Assembly: GCA_947585115.1 (NCBI GenBank)
Contig: CANPWW010000020.1
Span: 1 to 35,858, forward strand
From: an uncultured Monoglobus sp.
Lineage (GTDB): Bacteria > Bacillota > Clostridia > Monoglobales > Monoglobaceae
Direction of reading: 5' to 3'
DNA: 35,858 nucleotides
This document shows positions 2,439 through 29,577 of the stretch, piece by piece. A program made the position numbers and the translations under genes. Position 1 is the first letter of the stretch. The number at the start of each line of letters is the position of its first letter. The notes below the pieces were generated by a model. It was given only the letters and a program-made list of their open reading frames with translations, was not told the origin of the DNA and searched no databases.

Positions 2439-5400
2439 TTAAACCAAATAATAAACGTTTTCAAATCCCATTTCCTTGGCGCGCAGCACCGCCTCGGCGG
2501 ACCAGATTCCCCTGCTGCAGCAGAACACGATCTTGGTCTCGCGGCCGTAGGTCGATATCTTTTGGAGCTCATTAAGCGGCACATTGACCGCGCCCTCTAA
2601 TCTCGTCGGCTCGGCTTTGAACACCTCGCGCTCGCGCACGTCTATCGCGGCAGCGCCGCCCGCGATCAGAGCCATCGCCTCGTCTATGCTTATCTGATCG
2701 GCGCCCATGGCGGTCATCGAGATCTCTTTTCTCTCGTCCGCGCCGTCTCCGCGCAAGATCATAACGCCGTCTGAAATATCTATGCTCTTTATGTCAAAAT
2801 CGCAGACCTTTTTGCGCGTTCGGCATTTGGGACAGTCGGTTATGACTATAACCTCTCCGCCGCCGCAGCCCGCGTACAGCCTGTCTTTGTATGCCGCTAT
2901 GCCGCAGATCTTCGGCGGCTTGTCAAAGCCGATGACGCTCAGATCGACCTCGCTCCACTGTCTGCCCGTGTCGCTGAGATATATCTTCTCCTCGCCGTTT
3001 ATGTTTCTGTCAAGCCTCGCGAATCCTATATCCGCACTGAGACTTTGTACAGTCTTTTGATTCGGCTCCGCTCCGCCGCGGTAGTCCACGATCACGGCGT
3101 ACAGGCTCTTGTTCGCGCCTCCGCCGTAGGTGTAAATCGGAGCCGATGTGTCGGCAGTCTCGGCCGATACGACCGTTTTATGCCCGGGATGCGAGAGCCC
3201 CGACGCCAGACGCACGCCGTTTTGGACTATGTACTGCTCTCTGTCCTCGCCGCCGTCGAATATGACCGTCACGCGGCAGGGCGCCTCGGTAGTGAAGAAC
3301 AGACACGCTCTGTCCTCGCCGCCTTCTCCGCCCTGCCAGTCGCGGGTAAACTTCAGCTTTTCTCCGCCGGTATCAAAATCATACTCGGTGCAGGTGTGGT
3401 ATTTCAGCGGCCCGTAGCCCGTGAGGCCGTTGATCTCGGGCAGCTTGACCGCGCCGCTTTTGTCGAACAGCGCCGCGTAGGCCGGGTCGCTCGCGGAATA
3501 TATCACGCGGCGCGGAGCTTTAGGCGCGGAATACTTGAGCTTTGTCTCGGCTCCGCAAATATTGAGGGTTATCTCCTCCCCCTCTTTCGCGCCGGTTTCG
3601 ATCTCGTATACACCGCCGCCACAAACCGCCGCGGTCTTGCCGCCGCAGCGCAGCGTGTCGGACTTCGGCTCACCGACGCCGACATAATTCACATAAGCGG
3701 CAGCTTTGCCGCCGGTGCCGCACTCGACCGCGGCGATCTTATAAGGAGCATCGGCATCCGTCTCTTCGTATATCATTTTAAACTTGTCAATATCGGCGCC
3801 GCCCGCCGCGAGCCCGATATCCGCAAGGCCGTTAAAATCGGCTCCGCATTTGCGTATCGCCGCGGGGTCCGCTTTGAGCGTGATCTCGCTCCAGTCATCG
3901 GTCGGCTCCGCTATGCCCTCGGCGATCACCGAGCCGCCCGACATAAGCCGAACCGCGGCCGCAGGGCCGCCGAAACGGTACCTCAGACAAACCTCTTTCA
4001 AGTTCTCGATATTCAGGCCGCAGTATTTCAAAACGCGCGCTCCGGTACTCGCGGCATATCCTCCGCTTTCCGTTCCGCCGTCCTTCGCGGTCAGGTCGGC
4101 GCCGCCGCCGTTATCGGCAGTCTCGGCCTCGATCGGCAGATTTATGTATATAAGGCTTTCACCGCGGCGCAGGTTTTCAATATCGACTGCGCGGACCCTC
4201 ACAAGGCCGCTGCCCGACGCGATCAGCTTTTTATCTTTAAGCTCGGCGGTTTTCCGTTTTGAGCCGCTAAGATCCTCCGCGCTCCACGCGGCGCCGATCT
4301 CGGCTCCCGTTCCGTCTTTGGCGATAAGCGCGTATTCTCCGCGCTTTCCGATAACGCCGTTTTCGGCGCCGACCGCCTCGACCGCGAGGCTCATTTCAAG
4401 TTTGTCGGGCTCAACGTTTTCAAGATCGCGCAGCGTTTCATCAAGAGCTGTTTTCAACTCGTCAAGCTTGACCGCTCGACCTATCCTGCCGATCCCGTCC
4501 GAAAAAATTTTGTCAAGCAGCCTTAGATTGTTTTCCGAATACGCCTCGGGGCGCAGTCCGCTCCGAGCGGCTTTCAGCTTTGCCTCGGCATCGGCTTTGC
4601 TTTTTTCGTCCGCCTTGAGCTCGGGGATATTCACGATCGGGAACTGCGCGCTCTTTGTCTCGCCGCCGAATGTGACAGCCGCGGTGATCATCGTGACGCC
4701 GCCGCAGGGTCCGGGCAGGACTGTTCCGTCCGCCTCCGCTCGGGCGATCTCCTCGTTATCGCTTTTGTATTTTGTATTGGTTTCGTTTAGTTTGAGAAAG
4801 CTCTCGTCGGTCAGCGCCGCGGAAAGCTCCGCGCGAACGCTTGTGACCGTCTCGACCATATCTCCGCTCACCAGTCCGCGGACTATCACGCCGCTCGGCA
4901 GCGCCGCCACGGTTTTGAGCGTCGGCGTTATGCCGCTCGTGATCTCAAATTCCGCCGAAAGGCCTAAATCGGCCGAGTTTTTCGCCGCGTATATTTTGTA
5001 TTTTCCGGGATGGACCGCGGTCTTTTGCACCGCCTCGTCAAAAAATCTCAAATCGCGCATGCTTATCTTCGCCGCGGCGGTCTTGGTCTCCTCGGGACCG
5101 AGCGCAAGCTTCTCAAAGCCCACAAGGCATATCTTCGGCAGCCCCTTGATATTCGGGAATCCCGCATAGAACTGCACGGTCTCCATGCCGAAAACGCCGC
5201 CTGTGTTTGTGACGTCGACAAGTGCCTCGATCTCGCCGTCGGCCCCCGCCGCGGCGCTTGAAAGCCTCAGGTTTTTATATTCAAATTCCGAATAGCTCAG
5301 TCCGAATCCGAACGGGTAGACCGGTGTATTTTTATAATATCTGTACGTCCTGCCGGGGAAGTCTTTTTTATCGTCCGACTTTATTTCGTAATTGTTATAG

Positions 5401-7460
5401 TATCTTGTAATGCCGTCGTCGCCCACGGTTCCCTTTACGCCCACGGGCATTTTTTCAAGGTCTGAGTTTTTGTACCATGTGGTCGTCAGTTTGCCCGAGG
5501 GATTTACCGCGCCGCACAGCACTCGACCTATAGCCGAGCCCTGGGTCTGGCCGTTATACGACGTCCAGAGTATCGCCCTCGCGCCTTTTTCGAAGGGCTC
5601 GACGTCTATCTGTCCAACCGTCTGCAGCGCGACAACCGTCTTTTCGGGGTACGTTTCCGTGAGCGCGCGGACGTGGGCCTGGCTCTCGGGCAGCGCGATA
5701 CTGCCTCGGTCGTTGAACTCCGCCGAATCGGAGAGCGTCGTGCCCGCGTAGGCGATTATGACGTCCGCCTCGTCGAGCTCTTTTCTGTATTTGTCAACCG
5801 AGAACATACCCGCCTCGGCCTCAAACTCGATATAAAGGTCGGCGGTCTCGCAGTAGCCGCCCGCCTCTCCGGTATAGCCGCCCTTTGGGTCGGAGGCTTT
5901 GAGCTCCGCCACCTGAGGGCCGCCGAAGCCGTAGTACAGCTTGATTTTGCCTCCGGCCAGCGGCTCGATATCGGCCTCGACCGAAACGACGTCTCTGAAA
6001 TCAACGCTCGGGATCAGCGCCGCGCCCTTTCGGGTCACTCCGAAAAATCCAAACTCCACGCTCTCCATGCCCTCGGCTTTCGCCGAGCCGAGATCAACTT
6101 CTCTGGTTCCGCCGTTTTTCAGCAAAAGCCTCATGCCCCGTATGTTCATCAGCGGCGTGTCGTCGGTGGCGCCGCCCAAATATTTGAGCTCGGCGCCCGG
6201 GCAGGCTTTTTTAAGCTCCGCCGATATCCCCTCAAGGGGCGTGACGGTGCGCTCGGGTGAGCCCGAGTAGTCGCCCAGCACGATCTCGTCCGCCAAAGCG
6301 CCGACCAGCGCCGCGCTCTTTATGCTTTTGTCAAGCGGCAGTATGCCGTCGTTTTTCAGCAGCACCCACGACTGCTCGGCGGCCTCCTCGGCGACCGCAA
6401 TATGCTCAGGCGTCTCCAATACGTCCGCGGTTATTTCTCTGTAGGGCGGATTTTTATCAAACTCGCCTGTGCGCATCCTTTGAAGGAACAAATTGTATAT
6501 GTTTATATTCAGCTCGTCCTCGGTTATGCTGCCGTTTTTCACCGCCTCGAGCACGCTGCCCGCCGAGGCCGAATATCCGCAGTCGGTGTCGGCTCCATTC
6601 AGAAAGCCTTTCACCGTCGCCGCCGACTGGGGCACGGCGTTTATATCCTCACCCGGAAACAGCACGGTTTTGTATGCCGCGGTGTTGTTAAGGTCGCCGA
6701 ACGCGCCGCAGTCGCCCGTGACATAGCCTTTAAAGCCCCAGGTGCGGCGCAGCAGGTCTTTTAAAATATACGGATTCGCCGTGGCGGGAACGTAGTCATA
6801 GAGCAGCTTTCCGCCGCGGTATATCGTGGTCGCGTTGTACGAGCTCATGGCCGATGCCGGAGCCGCGCTTTCAACTATGTTCTGGAACACGCGGGCGTAG
6901 TAGTCGCGCAGGGTCCGCTCGCTCATGACCGAGGCGCCCACGCGGCGCTCCTTTTCCACGTTGTTGGCGACAAAATGCTTGACCGTCGCGATGGTCTTTA
7001 TATACTTTTTGTCGCCGCCCTGCATTCCCTTGACAAACTCGCTCCCCAGCCTGCCGCTGAGAAACGGGTCCTCGCCGTAGGTCTCCTCGTTTCTGCCCCA
7101 GCGCGGATCGCGCGCCATGTTGACGGTCGGGCTCCAGTATGAAAGATCGGTGCGCGGATTTTTTCCGTGCGCCTCGGTCGAGGTTATCTCGGCCGCACGG
7201 CGCACCAGATCGAGGTTCCATGTGTTTGACATGGAGAGGCTTGTGGGAAAGCTGGTCGCCTTGCCCTGCCGCGCCACGCCGTGCAGCGCCTCGCGCCAGT
7301 AGTTATAGGCCGAGACCCCCAGGCGCGGGATCGCCGCCGCCTCGTTTTTGAGCTGCGACGCCTTTTCCTCAAGGGTCATGCGCGAGACCAAGTCAGCCGC
7401 GCGCTCCTCGAACGATAAGCTCTCGTCAAGATACGCGGGTATTTTTTTGCTTTTTGCCAT
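2439..7460 (-). CDS. GH3 family glycoside hydrolase fused to C-terminal modules and a rhodanese domain
   Basis: A 1673-residue protein. Residues about 15-345 are the GH3 N-terminal barrel, with the substrate-contacting KHF motif at 161-163 and the expected nucleophile D250 in GYVTGDC. Residues about 365-665 are the GH3 C-terminal domain, apparently with a beta-rich insertion at about 435-555. E581 (SAEFNDR) is a candidate acid/base. A fibronectin-III-like domain follows (745-840). The motifs YWREALHG and TGDC resemble the beta-xylosidase/arabinosidase branch of GH3. Residues 850-1580 are not typical of GH3: Ig-like strands, a helical FIVAR-like segment (950-1020), a carbohydrate-binding-like beta domain (about 1100-1235) and a cysteine-containing patch (CPKC at 1543). 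Residues 1588-1673 are a rhodanese domain with a DVRE motif and active-site loop C1648-S-R-G-I-W-S. The M1 start has no signal peptide, so the enzyme is predicted to be cytoplasmic. ATG at 7460 has an AAAGGCGG site. It is the first gene of the operon with the aldo/keto reductase and GNAT genes. Confidence 0.9.
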   Translation of the reverse strand: MAKSKKIPAYLDESLSFEERAADLVSRMTLEEKASQLKNEAAAIPRLGVSAYNYWREALHGVARQGKATSFPTSLSMSNTWNLDLVRRAAEITSTEAHGKNPRTDLSYWSPTVNMARDPRWGRNEETYGEDPFLSGRLGSEFVKGMQGGDKKYIKTIATVKHFVANNVEKERRVGASVMSERTLRDYYARVFQNIVESAAPASAMSSYNATTIYRGGKLLYDYVPATANPYILKDLLRRTWGFKGYVTGDCGAFGDLNNTAAYKTVLFPGEDINAVPQSAATVKGFLNGADTDCGYSASAGSVLEAVKNGSITEDELNINIYNLFLQRMRTGEFDKNPPYREITADVLETPEHIAVAEEAAEQSWVLLKNDGILPLDKSIKSAALVGALADEIVLGDYSGSPERTVTPLEGISAELKKACPGAELKYLGGATDDTPLMNIRGMRLLLKNGGTREVDLGSAKAEGMESVEFGFFGVTRKGAALIPSVDFRDVVSVEADIEPLAGGKIKLYYGFGGPQVAELKASDPKGGYTGEAGGYCETADLYIEFEAEAGMFSVDKYRKELDEADVIIAYAGTTLSDSAEFNDRGSIALPESQAHVRALTETYPEKTVVALQTVGQIDVEPFEKGARAILWTSYNGQTQGSAIGRVLCGAVNPSGKLTTTWYKNSDLEKMPVGVKGTVGDDGITRYYNNYEIKSDDKKDFPGRTYRYYKNTPVYPFGFGLSYSEFEYKNLRLSSAAAGADGEIEALVDVTNTGGVFGMETVQFYAGFPNIKGLPKICLVGFEKLALGPEETKTAAAKISMRDLRFFDEAVQKTAVHPGKYKIYAAKNSADLGLSAEFEITSGITPTLKTVAALPSGVIVRGLVSGDMVETVTSVRAELSAALTDESFLKLNETNTKYKSDNEEIARAEADGTVLPGPCGGVTMITAAVTFGGETKSAQFPIVNIPELKADEKSKADAEAKLKAARSGLRPEAYSENNLRLLDKIFSDGIGRIGRAVKLDELKTALDETLRDLENVEPDKLEMSLAVEAVGAENGVIGKRGEYALIAKDGTGAEIGAAWSAEDLSGSKRKTAELKDKKLIASGSGLVRVRAVDIENLRRGESLIYINLPIEAETADNGGGADLTAKDGGTESGGYAASTGARVLKYCGLNIENLKEVCLRYRFGGPAAAVRLMSGGSVIAEGIAEPTDDWSEITLKADPAAIRKCGADFNGLADIGLAAGGADIDKFKMIYEETDADAPYKIAAVECGTGGKAAAYVNYVGVGEPKSDTLRCGGKTAAVCGGGVYEIETGAKEGEEITLNICGAETKLKYSAPKAPRRVIYSASDPAYAALFDKSGAVKLPEINGLTGYGPLKYHTCTEYDFDTGGEKLKFTRDWQGGEGGEDRACLFFTTEAPCRVTVIFDGGEDREQYIVQNGVRLASGLSHPGHKTVVSAETADTSAPIYTYGGGANKSLYAVIVDYRGGAEPNQKTVQSLSADIGFARLDRNINGEEKIYLSDTGRQWSEVDLSVIGFDKPPKICGIAAYKDRLYAGCGGGEVIVITDCPKCRTRKKVCDFDIKSIDISDGVMILRGDGADERKEISMTAMGADQISIDEAMALIAGGAAAIDVREREVFKAEPTRLEGAVNVPLNELQKISTYGRETKIVFCCSRGIWSAEAVLRAKEMGFENVYYLV

Positions 7461-7526
7461 ATTCTTTCCGCCTTTCGATATTGTAACGGTTATTGCTCAA
7501 ATTAATAATTGTTAAAATTTTTATTC

Positions 7527-7613: not shown

Positions 7614-8405
7614 ATGGTGCCCTTTTATGAAATCCAGCCGTCGGACCTTAACGTGATACACAACTACCGCGAGATCAGGTTCCACGCCCATCTGCACAAG
7701 CACATCGAGATCGTGTATGTTTTCGAGGGCGGCCAGCACGTGAATATCGACGGCCAAAAATACGAGGTCAAAGCCGGACAGGCCGCGATAATCTTTCCCG
7801 ACATCGTGCACCACTACTACCGCGATAATGTGCGCCCCGCGGACGGAGTGCTGGTGATCTGCCACCCGAGGATATTCGGAAACATTTTTCCCGATATTTC
7901 CAACTCGCGGCCCGAGTCTCCGCTTATTACGGAGGTGGACAAGGAAACGGCCTGCGCCTTCACGGGGATCGCCGACTGCACCTCGTTTTCCGAAAAACTC
8001 GGTTGGTCTTTGGTAATTATATCAAAGCTTCTGAAAAAAATCAAGATAAATAAAGATAAACATATCCCCGTTGAGAGCCTCGCGGAAAAAATGATAGAAT
8101 ACATATCGCTTAACTTCAAGCAGGACATTTCTCTCGATACTCTGGCCGAGGAATTCAGCGTCAGCAAATATTATATTTCGCATATATTTTCAAACAGGAT
8201 ACGTATCAATTTCCGCAGCTATCTTGCTCTGCTCCGCACCGAGTACGCCGCGGGGCTGATACGATCCACAAACGACAGCATAACAAATATCTGCCTGAAC
8301 GCGGGATTTTCCAGCCAGAGGACATTCAACCGCGCGTTCAAGCAGATATACGGCGTGACGCCGAGAGAGTATAAAAACAATATCAGCGAATTTTATAAAA
8401 ATTAA
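7614..8405 (+). CDS. AraC-family transcriptional regulator (cupin sensor + HTH)
   Basis: A 263-residue DNA-binding regulator. The N-terminal half (about 1-105) is a cupin-like sugar-sensing domain with the typical HxHxxIEIVYVFEG and FPDIVHHYY segments. The C-terminal 100 residues form the double helix-turn-helix, ending in the AraC signature around GFSSQRTFNRAFKQIYGVTPREYK. ATG at 7614 is preceded by a GGAGG site 9 bases upstream. The gene is divergent from the GH3/aldo-keto reductase/GNAT operon with 153 bases between start codons, the usual arrangement for a local activator responding to a sugar released by the enzyme. Its stop codon overlaps the stop of the converging polymerase gene by three bases (shared TTAA). 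Confidence 0.9.
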   Translation: MVPFYEIQPSDLNVIHNYREIRFHAHLHKHIEIVYVFEGGQHVNIDGQKYEVKAGQAAIIFPDIVHHYYRDNVRPADGVLVICHPRIFGNIFPDISNSRPESPLITEVDKETACAFTGIADCTSFSEKLGWSLVIISKLLKKIKINKDKHIPVESLAEKMIEYISLNFKQDISLDTLAEEFSVSKYYISHIFSNRIRINFRSYLALLRTEYAAGLIRSTNDSITNICLNAGFSSQRTFNRAFKQIYGVTPREYKNNISEFYKN

Positions 8406-9833: not shown

Positions 9834-9867
9834 ATTCTCAGTTCATATATTTAGGAGAGTGTGGATT

Positions 9868-12792
9868 ATGAAACTTAAAAAAGCGATAAGAAATATATTG
9901 TGCTCAGCGGGGCTCTGCGCCGTCATTTCGGTATGCCCCGCTCACGCGGCGGTGGGCGACATCGTTGACACGATATACACCACCGATATACTGACCCGCG
10001 TCAACGGCGCCGACATAGCCTCATTCAGCATTGAGGGCAGGACGCTGATCGCGATGGAGGATCTTAAAGACTACGGCTTTACCGTGGCTTATGACGACAG
10101 CATACGCACCCTGTTTGTGAACCAAACCGGAGAAACGCCCAAGGACATGCCCTCGATAATCCGCGGCACCGTCGGAGGCACCGCCGGATACACATACGAG
10201 ACCGACATAAAGGTTATCTTCAACGGCAAACCGGTCAACGCCTACGCCATAGACGGCAAAATGGCGGTCATAGTCGAAGAATTGGGCGTGCCCGAAAAAT
10301 ACGGAATGATATGCAGCTACGATGACGGCAAGCGCCTTTTGACGCTTGACAGCGCGGCGCCCGCGGCCACGCCGACGCCTGTGCCCACCGCGGCGCCCAC
10401 GGCATCCGCGGTTCCATCAACCTCGCCCTCGCCTTCTCCCGCGGCGACAGCCAAGACATCGGGCGGATCCGCCGCCGGCGGATTCAGCACAAGCGGAGGC
10501 GGATTCGGCGGAGGCGGAGGCTTCCACTCTGGCGGCTCGAGCGGAATGCCCGCGCCCGGCGCGGCGCCCGACTCGACTGCCGACAGCGCGCTTAACGTTA
10601 TTGTTGACGGGACCGAAGTCGGCGCCTACATATCGGACGAGAAAGTATATCTCGGCATCGACGCGCTGAAAGCATTCGGCTTTGACGAGACCTATCGGGA
10701 CGATAATATAATAATGCTCGTCAAAAAGCGTGGCGGAGACAGAAAGCCTCCGGCCGCGGACCAATCGCTCGAGCCCGCATACAAAAGCGGAGAACCGAAA
10801 GTCTACGTAAACGGCGTGCCCTGCGACACGATGTACGCGGGAGATATTCCCGCGATACGCGTCGATGATCTGAAAACCCTGCCGTTTGACGAAAACGTGC
10901 CCTGCTGCGGAATATCGGCGGAAAAGACGGCGGAAGGCTCGCTGATCATAGACACGACGGGCAGCGGCTACCCGACGTTTGACGAGCAGTCGTCGGCCGT
11001 GCTCAGCAGCGGAGACATGATAATAGACATGGACCGGGATTTTTGGCTGGCGCAGCGCAAAGGAAAGCTTTACAAGATACTGCGGAACGGACACGTGATC
11101 CCGATCACCGACCTTCTTGTTGACTACGGCATAGACATGTCGGCCGCCACGGATTTCTCCGTGAGCGCCGACGGCCACTCCCTCACTTGGATAAACCACA
11201 ACGACAACAAATACTATCAGTTCGATCTGACCGACCTGATCCCCGTGCCGGTGCTGAGCTCGAGCGTGCGCGTGCGCGTTAACGGAGCCGAGATAAGCGC
11301 GGCGACCTTGGGCTGCGAGACATTTATCGCCCTTGAGGATCTGAGCGCCTGCGGTTTTTCGACAGCGTACGACGGCAGCATAAACACCATGTTTGTGAAC
11401 CGGATCGAAAGCGCTCCCCAAAGCCCGACTGTATCGGCGGCGTCATACGGCGACGCGGAATACGGCGGCGAGTCGGATATCACGGTGGTGTTTAACGGCG
11501 TTTATATCAAGGCCTACAACATCGGCGGAAAAACTGCCGTCAAGGCTGATATTCTGGGCGGCGCAAACCAAAACGGAGAATATGACTACGGCCTTAGATA
11601 CGACCGCGCCGACGGGATCATTGATATAAATCCTCTGCCGTCCGAGCCAAAGGAAAAGCAGATCGAAAAGTTTATAGACCCCGAAAACAAATTTAACTGG
11701 AACTACGAAAACACTTACTCGGGCACCGATTTTGATCTTGTCATATGCTCCCAAAGCGGCACGCCCCACGGAACGTTTACTACCTTCAGGCAGTTCATGG
11801 ACATGGGCCGCTCCAACAATATAAACAACGTGTTTTATTATTACGGCTTTAACAATACATGGGGCAAAACCCTTATAGAAATAACCGGCATGAGCGGCGA
11901 CAAGCTGTATTTCACGGGAGAGCGCGGCGGCGGACGCAGCGGAGACTACGTTATGGACCTGCACAGCTATATCATAACTCCGCTCAGCGAGAACGAGCCC
12001 GACCCCGACGCCGATTTTATGCAGCGGTTCCCGGCGCCCGAAAGCCCGATCGGCAAGACGGCGGTCACTCCCGAATATCCCGTGGAGATCGACGGCGTGC
12101 CCGTCCGCGCCTGCGAGGCAGACGGCCGGGTGTACATCAGCCCCTATACCCTCACGGATTTCGGCTTTGACGTGACTTACACAAGCGACGATATGATAAT
12201 TCTCTTAAAAAGAGGCGAGGGCGGCAAGGCTCCCGCTGAGCCCGCGGCGCCGGGCTCGGAAGCGGGAACAATGACCGCTTGGGGCGAGCCCGAAATATTC
12301 GTGAACGGTGTGGCGGTAAGCTCGGTAAAAATCGACGGCGAGCCGATGATGAGGATCGACGATCTTAGCGTTGAGCCCTTTGACTTTGACGGCCGCGTAA
12401 TATCCGCCGGGATCGACGCCCGAATGAGCGACGGAAGCTTGATAATAGACACGACGATGAGCGGTTTTCCGAGCTTTGAATCACAGCTTGAAAAGGTCTG
12501 CTCGATATACGACGAGACCGATTTCTCGGGCAAGATAAAGAAAAATTATCTCTATCAAAGCGATGAGTATTCGGTCATCGATTATTCAAATCAATTCGGG
12601 AACCATGATATTTACAAGGTCTGCTCAAACGGCCTTGTTATGCCTCTGTCATTCATTATAGAGGCATACGGCGTGAGCGCCGCCGCGGAACCCGAGGTCA
12701 GCGGAGACGGCCTCACAATGACGCTGACCGACAGCGAGACGGGAACAGCGCACACATTGGATTTGATAAACCTGACGCTTGACAACGCATAA
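9868..12792 (+). CDS. secreted protein with duplicated copper-amine-oxidase-N-like (stalk) modules
   Basis: A 974-residue exported protein. Residues 1-27 form a signal peptide (MKLKKAIRN, hydrophobic core, then AHA-A). The body is built from repeated motifs of the form VNG/IDG - x - about 15 residues - LxxFGF, typical of the copper amine oxidase N-terminal (stalk) domains of Clostridia surface proteins. The order A (44-160), B (243-287), C (310-365), D (398-453) recurs as A' (468-588), B' (738-782), C' (808-863), D' (912-965), so the protein is an internal duplication. The first half contains a Pro/Thr/Ala linker (164-195) and a Gly-rich stretch (198-226). The second half instead has a unique segment (598-705). 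No SLH, LPXTG or membrane anchor is seen, so it may be released or held by its binding modules. ATG at 9868 is preferred to the in-frame GTG at 9859, which lies inside the ribosome site. Function unknown; a wall or glycan-binding role is an inference. Confidence 0.75.
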   Translation: MKLKKAIRNILCSAGLCAVISVCPAHAAVGDIVDTIYTTDILTRVNGADIASFSIEGRTLIAMEDLKDYGFTVAYDDSIRTLFVNQTGETPKDMPSIIRGTVGGTAGYTYETDIKVIFNGKPVNAYAIDGKMAVIVEELGVPEKYGMICSYDDGKRLLTLDSAAPAATPTPVPTAAPTASAVPSTSPSPSPAATAKTSGGSAAGGFSTSGGGFGGGGGFHSGGSSGMPAPGAAPDSTADSALNVIVDGTEVGAYISDEKVYLGIDALKAFGFDETYRDDNIIMLVKKRGGDRKPPAADQSLEPAYKSGEPKVYVNGVPCDTMYAGDIPAIRVDDLKTLPFDENVPCCGISAEKTAEGSLIIDTTGSGYPTFDEQSSAVLSSGDMIIDMDRDFWLAQRKGKLYKILRNGHVIPITDLLVDYGIDMSAATDFSVSADGHSLTWINHNDNKYYQFDLTDLIPVPVLSSSVRVRVNGAEISAATLGCETFIALEDLSACGFSTAYDGSINTMFVNRIESAPQSPTVSAASYGDAEYGGESDITVVFNGVYIKAYNIGGKTAVKADILGGANQNGEYDYGLRYDRADGIIDINPLPSEPKEKQIEKFIDPENKFNWNYENTYSGTDFDLVICSQSGTPHGTFTTFRQFMDMGRSNNINNVFYYYGFNNTWGKTLIEITGMSGDKLYFTGERGGGRSGDYVMDLHSYIITPLSENEPDPDADFMQRFPAPESPIGKTAVTPEYPVEIDGVPVRACEADGRVYISPYTLTDFGFDVTYTSDDMIILLKRGEGGKAPAEPAAPGSEAGTMTAWGEPEIFVNGVAVSSVKIDGEPMMRIDDLSVEPFDFDGRVISAGIDARMSDGSLIIDTTMSGFPSFESQLEKVCSIYDETDFSGKIKKNYLYQSDEYSVIDYSNQFGNHDIYKVCSNGLVMPLSFIIEAYGVSAAAEPEVSGDGLTMTLTDSETGTAHTLDLINLTLDNA

Positions 12793-22122: not shown

Positions 22123-23241
22123 TTACGCCAGCGCGGCGGTCACTTTTTCAAGCTCGTCTCTGATCTTGATGTGCTGCGGACAGGCTTCCTCGCACTTTCC
22201 GCATTTTACGCACTCCTCCGCTCCGGCCGAGCCGTGGCCGTTAACCAGCCATCCCAGCTGGTGCCGGGCGGCGGCCTTGTCGCCGTAGAGCGTCATAATA
22301 TTCATCGCGGTAAAGGTGCCTGATATGCCGATGTTTTTGGGGCAGACCTTGGCGCAGTAGTTGCAGACCGTGCAGGGAATGATCGGAATTTTCGCCATTT
22401 CTCCGCGCGCCTTGTCGAGTGTTTCGCGCTGCGCGTCGGTCAGTCCCGTAAATTCCTTCATGTACGACAGATTGTCCTCGGTCTGCTCAATGCTGCTCAT
22501 GCCCGACAGAACGGTTATAACGCCGTCAAGGTCAGCCGCGAAGCGTATCGCCCACGACGCGCACGACATATCGGGTTCCGCCTCTTTCAGGATATTTTTC
22601 ACGGACTCGGGCGGATTCGCGAGCATGCCGCCCTTGACCGGCTCCATGATTATGATCGGAATGTTGTGTTTCCTCGCGACCTCATAGCAGCCGCGTGACT
22701 GTATCGCGTAGTTGTCCCAGTCGGCATAGTTGATCTGGAGCTGCACAAATTCCATCTCGGGGTGCTTGTTCAAAATATCCTCAAGCTCCCGCGGGGTCGA
22801 GTGGAACGAGAAGCCGATATGCTTTATCAGACCCTCGGCCTTCTTTTGCATAACAAAGTCCCACATGTTAAAATCGTCAAAGAATTTTGTGCGCCCCTCA
22901 CCCAGGTTATGGAGCAGATAAAAATCAAAATATCCCGCGCCCGTCACATTCAGAGAGTTCTCAAACTGCGCGATCGCGTCCTCGCGCGTCTTGCAGTTTA
23001 TCCACGCGGCCATCTTGGTCGCAAGCTTGTAGCTCTCTCTGGGATAGCGGTCGACCAGCGCCTTTCGTATCGCGCTCTCGCTTTCGCCGTATGCCCAGGC
23101 GGTATCGAAATAATTGAATCCCGCTTCCATGAACTTGTCGACCATCACTTTGGTCTGCTCGACGTCGATCTTTTTATCGGTCATCGGCAGTCTCATAAGG
23201 CCGAAGCCCAGCTTGCCGATACCTTCATATAAATCCGACAT
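22123..23241 (-). CDS. aldo/keto reductase with C-terminal [4Fe-4S] clusters
   Basis: A 372-residue cytoplasmic oxidoreductase. The AKR barrel tetrad is D46, Y51 (YFDTAWAYGESE), K76 (ATK) and H111 (YLLHN). The C-terminal part has two cysteine motifs, CTVCNYCAKVCP (near 290) and CVKCGKCEEACP (near 345), each able to hold a [4Fe-4S] cluster. It belongs to the same broad family as the product of 1387-2418 but to a different subgroup: it is longer, with a TLYGDKAAARHQLGWL segment between the clusters. Substrate unknown; expected to be a ferredoxin- or NAD(P)H-linked carbonyl reductase. ATG at 23241 has AAAGGGG. It is monocistronic, with its own promoter at 23288-23316 and with pst-pho genes converging from the left. 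Confidence 0.92.
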   Translation of the reverse strand: MSDLYEGIGKLGFGLMRLPMTDKKIDVEQTKVMVDKFMEAGFNYFDTAWAYGESESAIRKALVDRYPRESYKLATKMAAWINCKTREDAIAQFENSLNVTGAGYFDFYLLHNLGEGRTKFFDDFNMWDFVMQKKAEGLIKHIGFSFHSTPRELEDILNKHPEMEFVQLQINYADWDNYAIQSRGCYEVARKHNIPIIIMEPVKGGMLANPPESVKNILKEAEPDMSCASWAIRFAADLDGVITVLSGMSSIEQTEDNLSYMKEFTGLTDAQRETLDKARGEMAKIPIIPCTVCNYCAKVCPKNIGISGTFTAMNIMTLYGDKAAARHQLGWLVNGHGSAGAEECVKCGKCEEACPQHIKIRDELEKVTAALA

Positions 23242-23587: not shown

Positions 23588-26500
23588 TTAAATCCTGCTC
23601 ATAACCGCGGCGAATTCGGCTCTGGTTATGGGCGACTGCGGTTCAAACGCGCCCGCGTCGTTTCCGGTCATAACCTGCTTCATTGTGCAGAACATTACGC
23701 CTTCGACTGCCCAGTCGGAAATTTGACCGAGGTCGGTGTACTCAAGCTGTATAGCCCATGCGCCTGTGGGGCCTTGGCCCTTGCAAGTGTAGTAGCCGGT
23801 GATGATCTTCGCAGCCTGCTCACGCGTTACGGGGTCATTGGGAGCAAACATATTGCCTCCAACGCCGTCTACTATTCCGCTTTCGGCAGCCCACGCGATG
23901 TAAGGCGCGTAGTATTCATTCGGGTCAACGTCCGCAAACGGTGATACCGCCGATGTGTCGGCCTTGTCGAATCTGCCGAGTATCGTAACCAGCATACCGC
24001 GTGTCAGAGTGTCGTTGGGTCCGAACAGGGTTTCGCTCTCGCCGTTCATAATGCCCATTGAGTAAACATTCTGAACGTAGGGATAATACCAATCGGTAGC
24101 CGCCACGTCGGTGAAGGGCATCTGTACCTCGCCTGTCGCGGGTCCGGGTCCGGTGATAGTGGTGTCGGGCGCCGTTGTTGCCGCGGGTTCTCCCGAAGCC
24201 TCGGGTGCCGCCGCGGCGGTTGCCTGAGGCGCTGCCGTGGCTGTCGTTCCGCCTGTTGAGAAGTTTGAGTTTGTGCCCGTGCCGCCCGTGCCGTACGAGG
24301 GTTTGCGCGTAGGCATGGGAGCCGATGTAGGCTCGCCCGAAGGTTCGGGCGTATTCTCGGTCGGAGGCTCCGCTGTCGGTCCGCTCGACGGCTCGGGAGC
24401 CGGCGTGGCCTCAAATGTGTTTGAAACCTCTATATCCACTGAATAGGCGTTGCCCTGAGCGTCGTCAATAACAAGTGTGTTTACGCCGTTTGGCAAAGTG
24501 TTCAGGAATTCGGGCTTAAATGTGATAACGCCGTTTTCGACCGTGTAGCTTTCAGCGGGAACCGAAACTCCGTTAATCGTTACCCGTGTAACGCTCACCG
24601 ACGGATCGGGAAGTGCGACAACGACATTCTCCGGAGACTCTCCGTCAAACACTTGGCTTTCAAGAGGCTCGGGAGTCACTGTAGGTTCGGGTGTTGTTTC
24701 CGCTCCCGGTGTAGGCGTTGCCTCAATTCCCGGTGTGGGCGTTACTTCGGTTCCGGGTGTAGATGTTGCTTCCGTTCCCGGTGTTGGTGTTGTTTCCGCT
24801 CCCGGTGTAGGCGTCGCCTCCGTTCCCGGTGTGGGTGTTACGTCGGTTCCCGGTGTGGGTGTTACGGCGGTTCCCGGTGTGGACGTTGCCTCGGTTCCCG
24901 GTGTGGGTGTTACGTCGGTTCCCGGTGTGGACGTTGCCTCGGTTCCCGGTGTGGGTGTTGTTTCCGTTCCCGGTGTAGACGTTGCCTCGGTTCCGGGTGT
25001 GGGTTCGGGAACCTCGGTTTCCTCCGGAGCGGGGGTCTCGTCCGGTTTCGGCGTGGGAGCGTTCGGGTCGGCAAGCAGTTTTAAATACTTAAAGTTGCCA
25101 ACATATTTGCCCGCTCCTGCGCCTGTGATCTCAATAGTTACCTGTCCTTTTGCCGTTTTATTTGAAAGATCGACTGTAAAGTCTTGATAATCATTCCAGC
25201 CCGATGTTCCCAAATCTTTAAATTCGGCGACAACGGTTTCGCCCACTTTGACGGTCACGTTTACCTTATTGGGATTGTTGTTTGTGCCCGTCTCTTTAGA
25301 CATATTTATAACTGCCTTTGCGTATTTTCCGGCAAGGTCAATTTCCGGAAGCGTGAATACGGCTATGTCGTCCGATGTCGCCTTAACGCTGTCCGGACGG
25401 ATAATATCACCGTCGGTCATCATTTTTCCGCCGTTTGACGTTGTGACCGAATTTTCTCCGAAATTCAGCGTCGCGGAACCGTCGGCATTTTCCGTGACCG
25501 TGCCGTATTGCGTCGCCGCATCCGGCGTCGGCGCCGGTTCGGGAGTTGTGGCTGTCGGCGGGTCTTTGACCGTCTCGCCGTCGGCCAGTACTCTCTTGTA
25601 TGTAACCCAGACGTCGCGCATATTAAACACTTCCGGACCGGGCGTTATAACCATCATGAGCTTGCCTTTTTCATATTTTGCCGGGAATTCGGCAAATTTG
25701 TATGATTCGGTTTTATTGTTTGAGCCCGTGCCCTCCAAGGTTATTGTTTGGTCCTTATAGTTAATATAAGCCGTGACCTTTGAGGGAACCCCCTTTGCAA
25801 ACTTTCCGCAGGCGTTGAGCCATTGATTCGGAGTGTTGCTTGAGCCGCTGAAACCGCTTGTTCCCGAGTCGATCGTGTCAAGCTGGTTCCAATGTCCAAG
25901 CTTTGAATATAGGAATCTTGACGTGATGTCGGTTCCTTCGCCTCTGAGCTCGATAAAGCCGTTTCCTGTCGTTTCGGGCGTGACATCGAGCGTGTATGTG
26001 ACGGCGATCACATCACTTTTCAGAATATCCTCATCGGCGCCGCTGTCAATCGCCAATTGGATCAAATCATAGGTCTTGTTTCCGTCTGTGTTGGCATAGG
26101 AAATTTTTGTGCTTATCGTCTCGTCGACCTGTTTTTCGGCTTTAACATTAAGTTCGAAAGGCTGTCCGATTATGCCCTTAACGGTCATTTTGCCGTCCGC
26201 GGGCTCTGTTATAGTCATATCAATGCTTGACGAGACAACCGTTAGATCATAATCAATACCGCCCGCGCTCGCTGGAATTTTCTCGAGCGTGGCCTCGGCA
26301 GTCTTCTCTCCCGCCGTCATAACAATTTCCTGCGACTTGATCAAAGCGTCGTTTTTTGTGACCGTTACGGTATAAGTGCAGTCCTCGTCAAGCGCCGCGC
26401 TCGCGCTGACGGTGACGGGAATATCAAACACATCTGTCGTGTTTGATGTGGGATTTATCGTGACCGGCACCGATTTCTTATCGCCTATTGTGGTGTCGGT

Positions 26501-29500
26501 TTTTCTCGCGTACAACGTGACCTCGCTTGTTATCGCGGGCATACCCGCGGCGGGACGAATGACTGTAAGCTTGGTTCCGTCTTCCGATACAACGGCGTTG
26601 GGTGAGGCCGATTCCCACTTAAACTCAACTCCCGCGGGAGGCGTCGGAAGAGTTATTTCCGTCTCTTCGCCTTCGGGAATGGTGACGGACGCGCCCTCGA
26701 TTGCCGCGTCGATTTCCTGAAGCTGCTCACTGAAATTCATGGGGTCCCAATCGTCGGTCCAGCCGCCTCTATTATCTTCCGCCCAACTTCCGTTCTCGGC
26801 CGAGAAATAATTTCTGGGATTAAACTCAAGTATCTGCCAGTCATCGAGAACTGTTCCCATGCCTTGGCCGCCTTCCTCGACAGCCGCGTTCTTTACGCGT
26901 CCGCTGAGGTCGATCGCCTCGCCGCTCGCGTTATACGTGCCGTTTTCAAAGAATCTTGCCAGTTCTTTCTTGCCGCCGCTCATGTCTCTCCAACCCGCGG
27001 CGCCGATACCGGCGGCGCTGAGGCCGGTCGATTTATTGTTGTCGATTTTGGTGTTTCGGAAGGTTATCTGGGCTCCCTGACCCCAAGGTCTGCCATAGAG
27101 AGAGTCGGTTATATTGTCGCGCACATTGTAGAACTCACAGTTGTAGAACAAGTAGCCGTACTTCTTGTTCATATCATGATTAGCCGCCGTGATCGTCGCG
27201 CCGTAATCCTTGTCGGACATACCCTCGGCGCCCAGCTTGCAGCCGTCGAAAACAGCCGTCGCGCCCGCGTAGATATAATCGGTTCCGCCGATCAAGTCGC
27301 AATTCTTAAAGTAAATTCTTTCCTCTCCTACATAGACCGAGTCCTGATTGCCTCTCGCGCGGACGTTTTCGAATATTATCTTGTCGCCCTTATAAACGGA
27401 AATGGCATGGCCCCTCTCGTTAAAGCCCGATGATCTCGCAAGCCAAGCGCTTTCGCCCGCGGTCAGCTCGCGCGTTGCCGCGGCATACTTTGTAAGGTTG
27501 ACTGTTCCGTCGGAATTTAATAAATCATTCGGCTTTGACTCGGGTGTGCTTTCATCGCAGACCGCGAGCTTTTCTCTGTAGGGCAGAGCCGCTTTGCCGG
27601 TGGCCGCGTCTATGTTCGGCGTGAGATGCGCGTCCTTTTCGCCCTGTGTAACCATAACCGGAACGCTGTTTACAATATTAAAATCCTTAACGGTGATATT
27701 CTCTGCGCCGCCTCTGATGATCAGCGGAGCCATGTTTGCGAGGCCGCCCGTGTTGCCCAGATTAATATCTCCGTTCACGGTGTCGGTATGCTCGGTGCCC
27801 GCTACATCTCTGTATGTAAGTTTTGTTCCTCTCGGAACTACATCGCCCACATTGTAGGTCTTGCCCGCCTCGTCTTTCGGCGGGTTTGCGTACCAGTCTA
27901 TATTCGGGTTGTACGAGCCGCTCAGATCGCAGTTGGCTGCTGAATAACCCGTGCAATAGTACCAGTGCAGATCGACTTTGCCCGATGTGTCCGGGGTCTG
28001 CCGCAGCGTTATGAACTTCGCGCCGTCGATAATGACCTGTTCCTCATAGTCGCCGGGGGTCACGTTTATCGTTACCCTTTCGGCTTCGCTTTGGGGATCG
28101 AGCTTTTTCGCCGCCGCGACCGCCGCGCTTATGGTTTTAAAACTGGTTTCCGACTCCGCCGCCGAGGGGTCGACCGTCAAAACCTTCGGCTCCACGGCCG
28201 GAGCTTTTGTGGGATCGGCCGTTACAGCCGGAGCAGACGAAACTGTCGGTTCGTTAGTTTCCGAGGGAACGGGAGCGCCGCTCGGTTCCGCTGTTTCGGC
28301 GGGCGCCGAGGGTTCAGCCGTTGCCGCGGGTGCTGACGGCTCCGCCGTCTCTTCGGGCTCAGGCGTGTCGATCGGCTCGGTTCCGTCGTTATAGAATCTT
28401 ATGTACACATAATTGCCCGCGTATGTCGCCGAGGTGGTTATCTCAAGCGTTACAGCGCCGGACGCGGTTTTATTTGTCAGATCCGCGATGTTTTCGCTGT
28501 ACGCGTTCCAATCTTCGTTCTTTATCACAATGCTGTCGGTCACAGCCGTGCCGCCGACCTTGATGACTGCGGAAGTGCTGTTTTCTCCGCCTTTGGTTGC
28601 GGCGTATACCGCGGCCTTGTTATACTTGCCGCCAAGATCAACATTCGGATATATGATCATAGCGCTTCTCCTCAAATTATCGCTTTGAGCCACATAATTT
28701 CCGTCAATATCCTTAAAATTCGAACCGTTGTTGTTTGAAACCGCATTGCTCAAAACAACGCTTCCGCCGCTCGTGATCGAATCGCTGCCCATATAGAGAT
28801 ACAGACCGTCGTTATCTCCGTCCGACCGCTCCTCAGTATAGCCGTATCCGGGGCGGACAGTCGGTTTCGGAGTGCTTGTCGGCTGATTCGGATCATCCGT
28901 TTTTATCGAATCCTCGTCGCCCTCTTTGATAACAAGGTTTCTGAAATTGCCGGTTAGGTCGTTTCCGTCCGCGCCGGTCTCCACGGTTTTAATAAAGATC
29001 GCCTTTTCGCCCTGCGCGGAAACCAGAGTTTTAAGCTGCATTTCAGCAAAGTCCCAACTTGCGGTCGGGCCCGAATAATCCTTAAACTCCGCGATCAAGG
29101 TGCCCTCATTTTCAAGGTCGGGCGCACCTTTATCGCTTATGTTTTTTTCCCCAAGGTTTTGGGTATAATACGTGTCTGTCTCAGTCGCAGTACCCTTAAG
29201 CGGCATAGCGTAAACCATAACATCGGCGGTATAAGTATTTATCAGCGCCCACTCAACCGAAATATCTACAAACTCCGGGAGAGTCGCCGTTCCCGCATAA
29301 GCTATCGCTCCGCTTGAACTGCCGTCAAGCATATCGCCTTTGACCTCGAAGAACTGATTATTACCCGTTCCTGCCCACGCGGTCTTGAAACTTGAAAATG
29401 TCGCGATAGTATCGCCCTTCGCCGCGAACACCGGCATTGAGACAAACATTGTCATGATCATCGCGATCACCAAAATCAAAGACATTGTTCTGCTTTTTCT

Positions 29501-29503
29501 CAT
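23588..29503 (-). CDS. secreted, SLH-anchored multimodular pectin methylesterase (CE8)
   Basis: A 1971-residue surface enzyme removing methyl esters from homogalacturonan. Domains: signal peptide 1-28; beta-rich domain 30-195; carbohydrate-binding-like domain about 230-373; Pro/Glu/Ala/Thr linker 378-440; pectinesterase beta-helix about 440-905 with Q720/D721 (GNQDSVY), D742 (GGTDYIY) and R805 (YGRPWG); Ig-like and other beta domains 930-1340; a second binding-like domain about 1350-1480 similar to the first (both have DLGGKY/DLAGKY and DLTNKTA/DLSNKTA); 13 tandem TPGTEATS-type octapeptides 1502-1605; another beta domain and linker; three SLH repeats about 1795-1971 anchoring the protein to secondary cell-wall polymer. 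ATG at 29503 (MRKSRTM) has AAAGGAG and starts a proper signal peptide. The in-frame upstream ATG at 29569 lies before the predicted transcription start and is rejected. Confidence 0.93.
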   Translation of the reverse strand: MRKSRTMSLILVIAMIMTMFVSMPVFAAKGDTIATFSSFKTAWAGTGNNQFFEVKGDMLDGSSSGAIAYAGTATLPEFVDISVEWALINTYTADVMVYAMPLKGTATETDTYYTQNLGEKNISDKGAPDLENEGTLIAEFKDYSGPTASWDFAEMQLKTLVSAQGEKAIFIKTVETGADGNDLTGNFRNLVIKEGDEDSIKTDDPNQPTSTPKPTVRPGYGYTEERSDGDNDGLYLYMGSDSITSGGSVVLSNAVSNNNGSNFKDIDGNYVAQSDNLRRSAMIIYPNVDLGGKYNKAAVYAATKGGENSTSAVIKVGGTAVTDSIVIKNEDWNAYSENIADLTNKTASGAVTLEITTSATYAGNYVYIRFYNDGTEPIDTPEPEETAEPSAPAATAEPSAPAETAEPSGAPVPSETNEPTVSSAPAVTADPTKAPAVEPKVLTVDPSAAESETSFKTISAAVAAAKKLDPQSEAERVTINVTPGDYEEQVIIDGAKFITLRQTPDTSGKVDLHWYYCTGYSAANCDLSGSYNPNIDWYANPPKDEAGKTYNVGDVVPRGTKLTYRDVAGTEHTDTVNGDINLGNTGGLANMAPLIIRGGAENITVKDFNIVNSVPVMVTQGEKDAHLTPNIDAATGKAALPYREKLAVCDESTPESKPNDLLNSDGTVNLTKYAAATRELTAGESAWLARSSGFNERGHAISVYKGDKIIFENVRARGNQDSVYVGEERIYFKNCDLIGGTDYIYAGATAVFDGCKLGAEGMSDKDYGATITAANHDMNKKYGYLFYNCEFYNVRDNITDSLYGRPWGQGAQITFRNTKIDNNKSTGLSAAGIGAAGWRDMSGGKKELARFFENGTYNASGEAIDLSGRVKNAAVEEGGQGMGTVLDDWQILEFNPRNYFSAENGSWAEDNRGGWTDDWDPMNFSEQLQEIDAAIEGASVTIPEGEETEITLPTPPAGVEFKWESASPNAVVSEDGTKLTVIRPAAGMPAITSEVTLYARKTDTTIGDKKSVPVTINPTSNTTDVFDIPVTVSASAALDEDCTYTVTVTKNDALIKSQEIVMTAGEKTAEATLEKIPASAGGIDYDLTVVSSSIDMTITEPADGKMTVKGIIGQPFELNVKAEKQVDETISTKISYANTDGNKTYDLIQLAIDSGADEDILKSDVIAVTYTLDVTPETTGNGFIELRGEGTDITSRFLYSKLGHWNQLDTIDSGTSGFSGSSNTPNQWLNACGKFAKGVPSKVTAYINYKDQTITLEGTGSNNKTESYKFAEFPAKYEKGKLMMVITPGPEVFNMRDVWVTYKRVLADGETVKDPPTATTPEPAPTPDAATQYGTVTENADGSATLNFGENSVTTSNGGKMMTDGDIIRPDSVKATSDDIAVFTLPEIDLAGKYAKAVINMSKETGTNNNPNKVNVTVKVGETVVAEFKDLGTSGWNDYQDFTVDLSNKTAKGQVTIEITGAGAGKYVGNFKYLKLLADPNAPTPKPDETPAPEETEVPEPTPGTEATSTPGTETTPTPGTEATSTPGTDVTPTPGTEATSTPGTAVTPTPGTDVTPTPGTEATPTPGAETTPTPGTEATSTPGTEVTPTPGIEATPTPGAETTPEPTVTPEPLESQVFDGESPENVVVALPDPSVSVTRVTINGVSVPAESYTVENGVITFKPEFLNTLPNGVNTLVIDDAQGNAYSVDIEVSNTFEATPAPEPSSGPTAEPPTENTPEPSGEPTSAPMPTRKPSYGTGGTGTNSNFSTGGTTATAAPQATAAAAPEASGEPAATTAPDTTITGPGPATGEVQMPFTDVAATDWYYPYVQNVYSMGIMNGESETLFGPNDTLTRGMLVTILGRFDKADTSAVSPFADVDPNEYYAPYIAWAAESGIVDGVGGNMFAPNDPVTREQAAKIITGYYTCKGQGPTGAWAIQLEYTDLGQISDWAVEGVMFCTMKQVMTGNDAGAFEPQSPITRAEFAAVMSRI
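24689..25000 (-). repeat. 24-bp minisatellite, 13 units, coding for Thr/Pro linker
   Basis: Exactly 13 units of 24 bases encode octapeptides of the type TPGTEATS, TPGTETTP and TPGTDVTP inside the pectin methylesterase gene. Units differ at a few positions (second half ATS, ETTP, DVTP, AVTP). The period is a multiple of three, so gain or loss of units would change linker length without a frameshift. The linker spaces the catalytic part from the SLH anchor and is a likely O-glycosylation site. Confidence 0.9.
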
Positions 29504-29549
29504 TGTTTTTGCTCCTTTCGCACCTTTTGATACATACAAAAGACGATAA

Positions 29550-29577
29550 ATTATAATAATATTTTGCATTTTGTTAA
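29550..29577 (-). promoter_or_regulatory. candidate promoter of the pectin methylesterase gene
   Basis: On the minus strand TTAACA (29577-29572), a 16-base spacer and TATAAT (29555-29550), giving a leader of about 40 bases with AAAGGAG before ATG 29503. The surroundings are very AT-rich, so chance matches are possible. Confidence 0.5.

Follow-up and report, generated by a model that had tools for sequence, protein, structure and literature searches.

The locus examined here raises the question of why a glycoside hydrolase of family 3 (GH3) should end in a rhodanese domain. The window, as we call the whole stretch of 35,858 nucleotides analysed, comes from an uncultured Monoglobus sp. and carries on its minus strand, at 2439-7460, the gene of a 1673 aa protein. 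According to its ORF, translation and Pfam matches, a GH3 core is followed there by a cysteine-bearing module (Cys module) and a rhodanese. An earlier note, made from the sequence alone, had described this as a predicted cytoplasmic sugar hydrolase joined to a rhodanese, and had suggested a sulfur- or redox-related role.

Gene, reading frame and domain layout

The ORF runs from 7460 down to 2439, 1673 codons with no internal stop, and a Shine-Dalgarno-like AAGGCGG (7468-7474, minus strand) was recognized by eye 7 nt before the ATG. The N-terminus of the protein, MAKSKKIPAYLDE, contains no signal peptide as judged by eye. Pfam identifies Glyco_hydro_3 in residues 57-319 (6504-7292; PF00933, 124 bits against a cut-off of 27), Glyco_hydro_3_C in residues 366-723 (5292-6365; PF01915, 145.7 bits against 31), an Fn3-like domain in residues 760-829 (4974-5183; PF14310, 50 bits, over its cut-off) and the rhodanese in residues 1593-1672 (2445-2684; PF00581, 33.1 bits against 22.2), all on the minus strand, like the other features of this gene given below. 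Both the complete GH3 core proposed earlier, with D250 and K161-H162-F163, and the C-terminal rhodanese were verified by these matches and residues.

The roughly 700 residues of extra modules mentioned in the same note are present as well, the region including a carbohydrate-binding-module (CBM) fold in residues 1315-1462 (3075-3518); this is a match by fold, no PDB entry being matched by sequence. The Cys module occupies residues 1493-1590 (2691-2984), and corresponds to the final portion of the propeller found in the stand-alone proteins described below. No thioredoxin domain is found among the Pfam matches of the protein, the CxxC motif being placed in this mostly-beta module.

A divergent AraC-type regulator (7614-8405, plus strand; PF12833/PF02311) possibly controls the gene; genes AraC-like by their look rather than by a Pfam test also lie divergently beside fused genes at three other loci (L038, L049, L128). 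Just downstream, at 1387-2418 on the minus strand, is an aldo/keto reductase with a C-terminal 4Fe-4S domain, a second one being found at 22123-23241 on the same strand. The window further contains a 977-aa ORF with a GTG start and no Pfam match at E 0.01 (9859-12792, plus strand), and a pectinesterase of 1993 aa featuring three SLH stretches (23588-29569, minus strand).

A xylosidase-type active site

The solved structures nearest to the GH3 part are beta-xylosidases, and its catalytic core is the same as that of PcBxl3 (7vc7), xlnD (6q7i) and TrXyl3A/BXL1 (5a7m). W55, E57, K161, H162, D250 and E581 align with Trp60, Glu62, Lys183, His184, Asp267 and Glu470 of PcBxl3. In the passages of the PcBxl3 paper cited here (PMC8913315), Trp60 and Glu62 are near C5 and O4 of xylose, and the Trp, which marks xylosidases and is missing from beta-glucosidases, appears to aid xylose selection; Asp267 is given as the nucleophile, Glu470 as the proposed acid/base. 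In the relatives, W55 and E57 (7290-7298) are each conserved in 88 of 88 covered sequences, and the nucleophile D250, adjacent to C251 (6708-6713), in 90 of 90; the position of E581 (5718-5720) was counted on the alignment with the acid/base proposed in the same passages (PMC8913315). Carrying the active-site residues of beta-xylosidases, the GH3 is predicted to be one itself. Its best NCBIfam model is the Xyl3A-type xylan 1,4-beta-xylosidase NF041776, with 463.9 bits, well short of the cut-off of 1250. Unlike the window protein, this model (846 positions) has no rhodanese, and the solved beta-xylosidase chains, 743-785 aa long, leave no room for its Cys module, CBM and rhodanese.

A disulfide is described at the -1 site of PcBxl3 and TrXyl3A, where together with a methionine it faces the bound xylose, in passages that name no cysteines (PMC8913315). 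Within the solved xylosidases, C251 aligns with a Cys beside the nucleophile and C294 (6579-6581) with the Cys of a D-x-D-C-G motif, both positions being Cys in PcBxl3, and each is conserved wherever covered (90/90) among 91 database proteins. We infer that C251 and C294 form the disulfide of the solved enzymes.

Occurrence of the fusion

The earlier note had named beforehand, as a check on its reading, the presence of the fusion in related genomes. Of the 12 genus genomes, 10 carry the window-type fusion, as one open frame in eight (the window's own, G002, G003, G004, G006, G008, G010 and G011) and interrupted by contig ends in two (G005, G009); it was not found in G001 and G007, the two least complete of the set. 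Five of seven named loci, labelled uncultured Monoglobus sp. or Clostridia bacterium, are 91-94% identical. An assembly or annotation artefact can be ruled out, because relatives assembled separately share the same frame; the claim of an intact frame, free of an assembly join, thus holds for a stop-free ORF which recurs in related genomes and among database proteins.

Database searches, each scoring about 8000 candidates, returned proteins with both GH3 and rhodanese in 9 of 9 matches to residues 840-1673 and in 78 of 82 matches to a paralogue, P0010 being common to the two lists. These sets are non-random, having been collected through the rhodanese half, so that exported GH3s with the Cys pair and no rhodanese would stay unseen in them.

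Rhodanese was matched three times in the window's own genome, always terminating a large GH3 protein. Over the 12 genus genomes, 34 rhodanese and 32 Cys-module matches were found, every one of the latter preceding a rhodanese, and 30 of the 32 lie on frames also matching GH3: 28 frames of at least 1684 codons, each with a GH3 part, and two more (1378 and 1311 codons) covering GH3 residues. The remaining two frames have 609 codons, in G002, and 441 codons, at a contig start in G009; the G009 piece is the continuation of a gene of the window's type (A type) that is interrupted by the end of another contig. Two rhodaneses come without a Cys module, in frames 145 and 393 codons long. A general anchoring tag, of the kind represented by SLH, is disfavoured, because Cys modules track rhodanese and GH3, and the SLH pectinesterase of the window has no rhodanese.

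Two loci depart from the common layout. At L131 (2918-8251, plus strand; genome G393) GH3 and Cys-module/rhodanese share one reading frame but are separated by a single stop codon. The A-type GH3 of L018 (1417-6537; genome G017) keeps the CxxC module and ends without a rhodanese, inspection by eye of about 860 nt further on, in all three forward frames, revealing none; despite this loss C251, C294 and the CxxC are retained.

Cys module and rhodanese as one unit

The cysteine patch noticed earlier at residues 1543-1553 exists, and stretches further, to C1532. Within it, C1532, C1543 and C1546 form a C-x10-C-x2-C motif (2823-2867). Where covered in an alignment of 39 proteins, C1532 is conserved in 38 of 38, and C1543, C1546 and C1648, the cysteine of the rhodanese loop, in 39 of 39 each, the other cysteines between GH3 and patch being variable. 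The larger set of 91 database proteins gives similarly 88/88 for C1532 (88/89 in the other, HMM, alignment), 89/89 for both C1543 and C1546 and 87/87 for C1648, which is therefore conserved among homologues in either alignment. Four of the 91 do not extend to the column of the rhodanese Cys: two (P0179, P0203) stop within the rhodanese itself, and two (P0196, P0211) stop ahead of the Cys module. The fourth cysteine of the patch, C1553, is found in just 40 of 89 fused and 28 of 62 stand-alone proteins.

The rhodanese loop, C1648-S-R-G-I-W1653 (2502-2519), has the catalytic-type Cys and, at +5, the Trp in place of Arg which the earlier note reported. Compared with active rhodaneses, the catalytic Cys of a 6-residue loop is present and the Arg or Lys at the loop end is absent. 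Among 87 proteins the loop ends in R in 75, K in 7 and W in 5; judging from the alignment, the Trp is a trait of the window's near kin, so that the Arg-to-Trp change, real in the window, does not stand as a feature of the system.

Within the window's subclade, five pairs give a dN/dS of 0.06-0.13 for the rhodanese and 0.10-0.13 for the GH3 core, and 0.28-0.36 for residues 841-1340. Rhodanese values of 0.16-0.31, based on few changes, were obtained among L013, L014 and L015, and the window/L013 pair gives 0.22, with 0.21 for GH3. By these ratios, purifying selection acts on the rhodanese of the subclade as it does on the GH3 core. A dead rhodanese is ruled out because of the cysteine conservation and dN/dS. 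In all, the sequences compared show the Cys patch and the rhodanese as a single conserved block that goes with this kind of GH3, whether fused to it or encoded next to it.

Exported and leaderless forms

A signal-peptide-like start was found in 75 of the 91 database proteins by a crude pattern scan, signal peptides being called throughout by such a pattern and by eye. The 16 others comprise the window's type (P0001-P0010, probably P0199) and five proteins with cut or doubtful starts. Likewise, the two other Monoglobus paralogue types begin with clear signal peptides, the A type being leaderless. The term "cytoplasmic" used in the earlier note fits, then, the leaderless subtype of the window and not most of its relatives.

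In a tree of 43 GH3 domains, whose root is arbitrary and in which some long branches meet, 34 fused or A-type rows fall together (100/100), the leaderless A type forming one branch within the fused group (100/99), and the split partners, five of which were of sufficient length, form one group (99/96). At five loci (L043, L046, L054, L055, L056) an exported GH3-rhodanese gene lies near a second GH3, of 771-785 aa, which failed to align in the xylosidase active-site columns.

The stand-alone unit and its GH3 neighbour

Other Firmicutes encode the unit separately, as a lipoprotein-like protein made up of a predicted seven-bladed propeller, the CxxC and the rhodanese. The stand-alone set (P0011-P0072), likewise drawn from about 8000 scored candidates and non-random, includes the matches down to the last one with a rhodanese; P0073-P0130, with no Pfam rhodanese, were left out. 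The CxxC and rhodanese cysteines are present in 62 of 62. A lipobox-like Cys is found at column 27 in 54, and an SLH domain, with no lipobox by the pattern used, in five (P0035, P0037, P0038, P0041 and P0045); stand-alone forms are therefore probably located at the cell surface.

All six stand-alone genes whose neighbours were read, in five genomes (L133, L134, L135, L136, L150 and L151), lie directly upstream of a GH3. The six neighbouring GH3s all contain the same D-C and second Cys, and all have a signal peptide by eye. Around the split form there are also genes of sugar transport and sensing, including ChvE/GguA/GguB and XylF-type transport. At the sequence level, the partnership between GH3 and unit, by fusion or conserved gene order, is well supported. 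The stand-alone gene of L133 (6425-8209, minus strand; genome G069) contains in-frame TGA, one just before the rhodanese, which may reflect either decay or a sequencing error.

The first Foldseek match of the stand-alone propeller is Ycf48 (5oj3; E 2.1e-12, TM 0.48/0.66), a photosystem II assembly factor, which helps to assemble a partner protein and, unlike the stand-alone proteins, has no rhodanese. The corresponding Pfam model, PF14870, scores 12.9 in L134, under the cut-off of 27, and is absent from the Pfam matches of L135 and L136. Ycf48 is also absent among the best 50 VIA matches, where virginiamycin B lyase and WDR5 rank first, so that the likeness may be that of propellers generally; families absent from the Foldseek and VIA match lists could still be related.

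GH3 enzymes without the unit

For comparison, 13 further GH3 places (L152-L164) were fetched, and no Cys-module/rhodanese unit was found in the several kb around any of them. Eight (L152-L159) have the Cys pair without the unit, none of their seven readable starts featuring a signal peptide (L155 is cut by a contig end); the other five (L160-L164) have neither. Among the GH3s read, exported ones with the Cys pair go with the unit and leaderless ones are without it, except for the window's A type.

A search for disulfide catalysts took in DsbB and Thioredoxin_4, DSBA (PF01323) and VKOR (PF07884) lying outside it. Neither of the two was found in any of the 12 genus genomes at E 0.001; control matches among 14 genomes were 6 for DsbB and 9 for Thioredoxin_4.

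A possible thiol catalyst for the xylosidase

Since DsbB and Thioredoxin_4 were not found in the genus, we propose that a dedicated thiol catalyst makes or keeps the active-site disulfide: the Cys-module/rhodanese tail may set the predicted C251-C294 bond of its own GH3, a reading to which we give somewhat less than an even chance. C1648 would accept either sulfane sulfur, with polysulfide or thiosulfate as its source, or another thiol; the C1543/C1546 pair would act as its redox partner and hand oxidising equivalents on to C251/C294, with release of sulfide, and the disulfide would thereby be formed without oxygen. In the exported forms such a reaction would belong to folding or assembly, and in the leaderless form of the window the unit may hold or adjust the redox state of C251/C294 inside the cell. 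Partnership and conservation can be read directly from the sequences; which bond the unit acts on, which way the chemistry runs and which compound donates the sulfur are presumed. The first rank of the assembly factor Ycf48 among Foldseek matches was counted in favour. The main points against a simple export story are that the leaderless A type keeps the unit and that L018 has lost the rhodanese; the Cys pair also occurs in GH3s devoid of the unit, and the window loop is without the usual Arg. The thiol or sulfur role suggested earlier is favoured here too, apart from the cytoplasmic location and the Trp as general features.

Partial parallels are known. The CoA-disulfide and persulfide reductases 3icr, 3nt6 and 8a56 also carry a fused rhodanese, joined to a flavin/NADH domain, whereas the partner in the window is a sugar hydrolase, and Pfam matches up to E 1 include no flavin pyridine-nucleotide disulfide reductase domain. 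PspE (2jtq), a single-domain rhodanese scoring 58.8 bits against the profile of the unit, is an exported one, located outside the cytoplasm, and differs in being a single 85-aa domain, with neither the CxxC propeller nor a GH3 partner. By title and abstract, no paper on a GH3-rhodanese protein was found in a literature search outside which most subscription journals lay; the search words occur in PMC10353221, PMC12419801 and PMC11311503.

The rhodanese fold and the propeller blades might instead be a docking or structural module, holding the xylosidase at the surface or to a partner, its cysteines being structural, in a metal site or in disulfides. The lipobox-like Cys or SLH of stand-alone forms, the common use of propellers as binding scaffolds and the varying loop Arg would fit such a module, which we regard as possible, if rather unlikely: it would not need the invariant rhodanese Cys, and the leaderless form retains the unit. 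Counting C1553, the motif has four cysteines, as metal sites do, but the variation of this residue in fused and stand-alone proteins makes a fixed four-Cys metal site unlikely, and weakens that proposal.

We consider it unlikely that the unit is a reversible sulfur or redox switch, sensing sulfide, polysulfide or oxidants and toggling the xylosidase through its active-site Cys pair. The same cysteine conservation would be expected, the pair could be reversibly reduced in the leaderless form of the window, and the closest rhodanese folds include those of CoA-disulfide and persulfide reductases that bear a rhodanese; the split form, however, is surrounded by genes for sugar transport and sensing, not by sulfur or stress genes.

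Detoxification, in which the GH3 would cut a toxic cyanogenic or sulfur-bearing plant glycoside and the rhodanese convert the released cyanide or sulfur compound, invokes textbook rhodanese chemistry and would suit several relatives known from MAGs with the name Lapin, the French word for the plant-eating rabbit, but is demoted to a quite improbable reading by -1 residues typical of a xylosidase rather than a glucosidase and by operon partners for ChvE/GguA/GguB and XylF-type sugar transport, and leaves the CxxC motif without a role.

Returning to the thiol catalyst, a wider version, speculative and on balance doubtful, is that of an oxygen-independent disulfide system serving one kind of enzyme: anaerobic Clostridia with no detectable DsbB or DsbA-like Thioredoxin_4 would rely on the CxxC of a surface propeller and a rhodanese, driven by sulfane sulfur, to form the active-site disulfide of exported beta-xylosidases, the unit being a lipoprotein encoded next to the client or part of the same protein. 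The thiol reading can be tested directly, each participant having been specified: the proposed catalyst, its client and the cysteines of the client. The finding itself is that two signs, gene fusion and a conserved gene order, link a mostly exported rhodanese to a single enzyme family. Should the thiol reading be true, it would suggest how anaerobic gut Firmicutes, lacking the usual Dsb pair, form disulfides in the enzymes they secrete, and would point to a tailored helper for producing active GH3 xylosidases.
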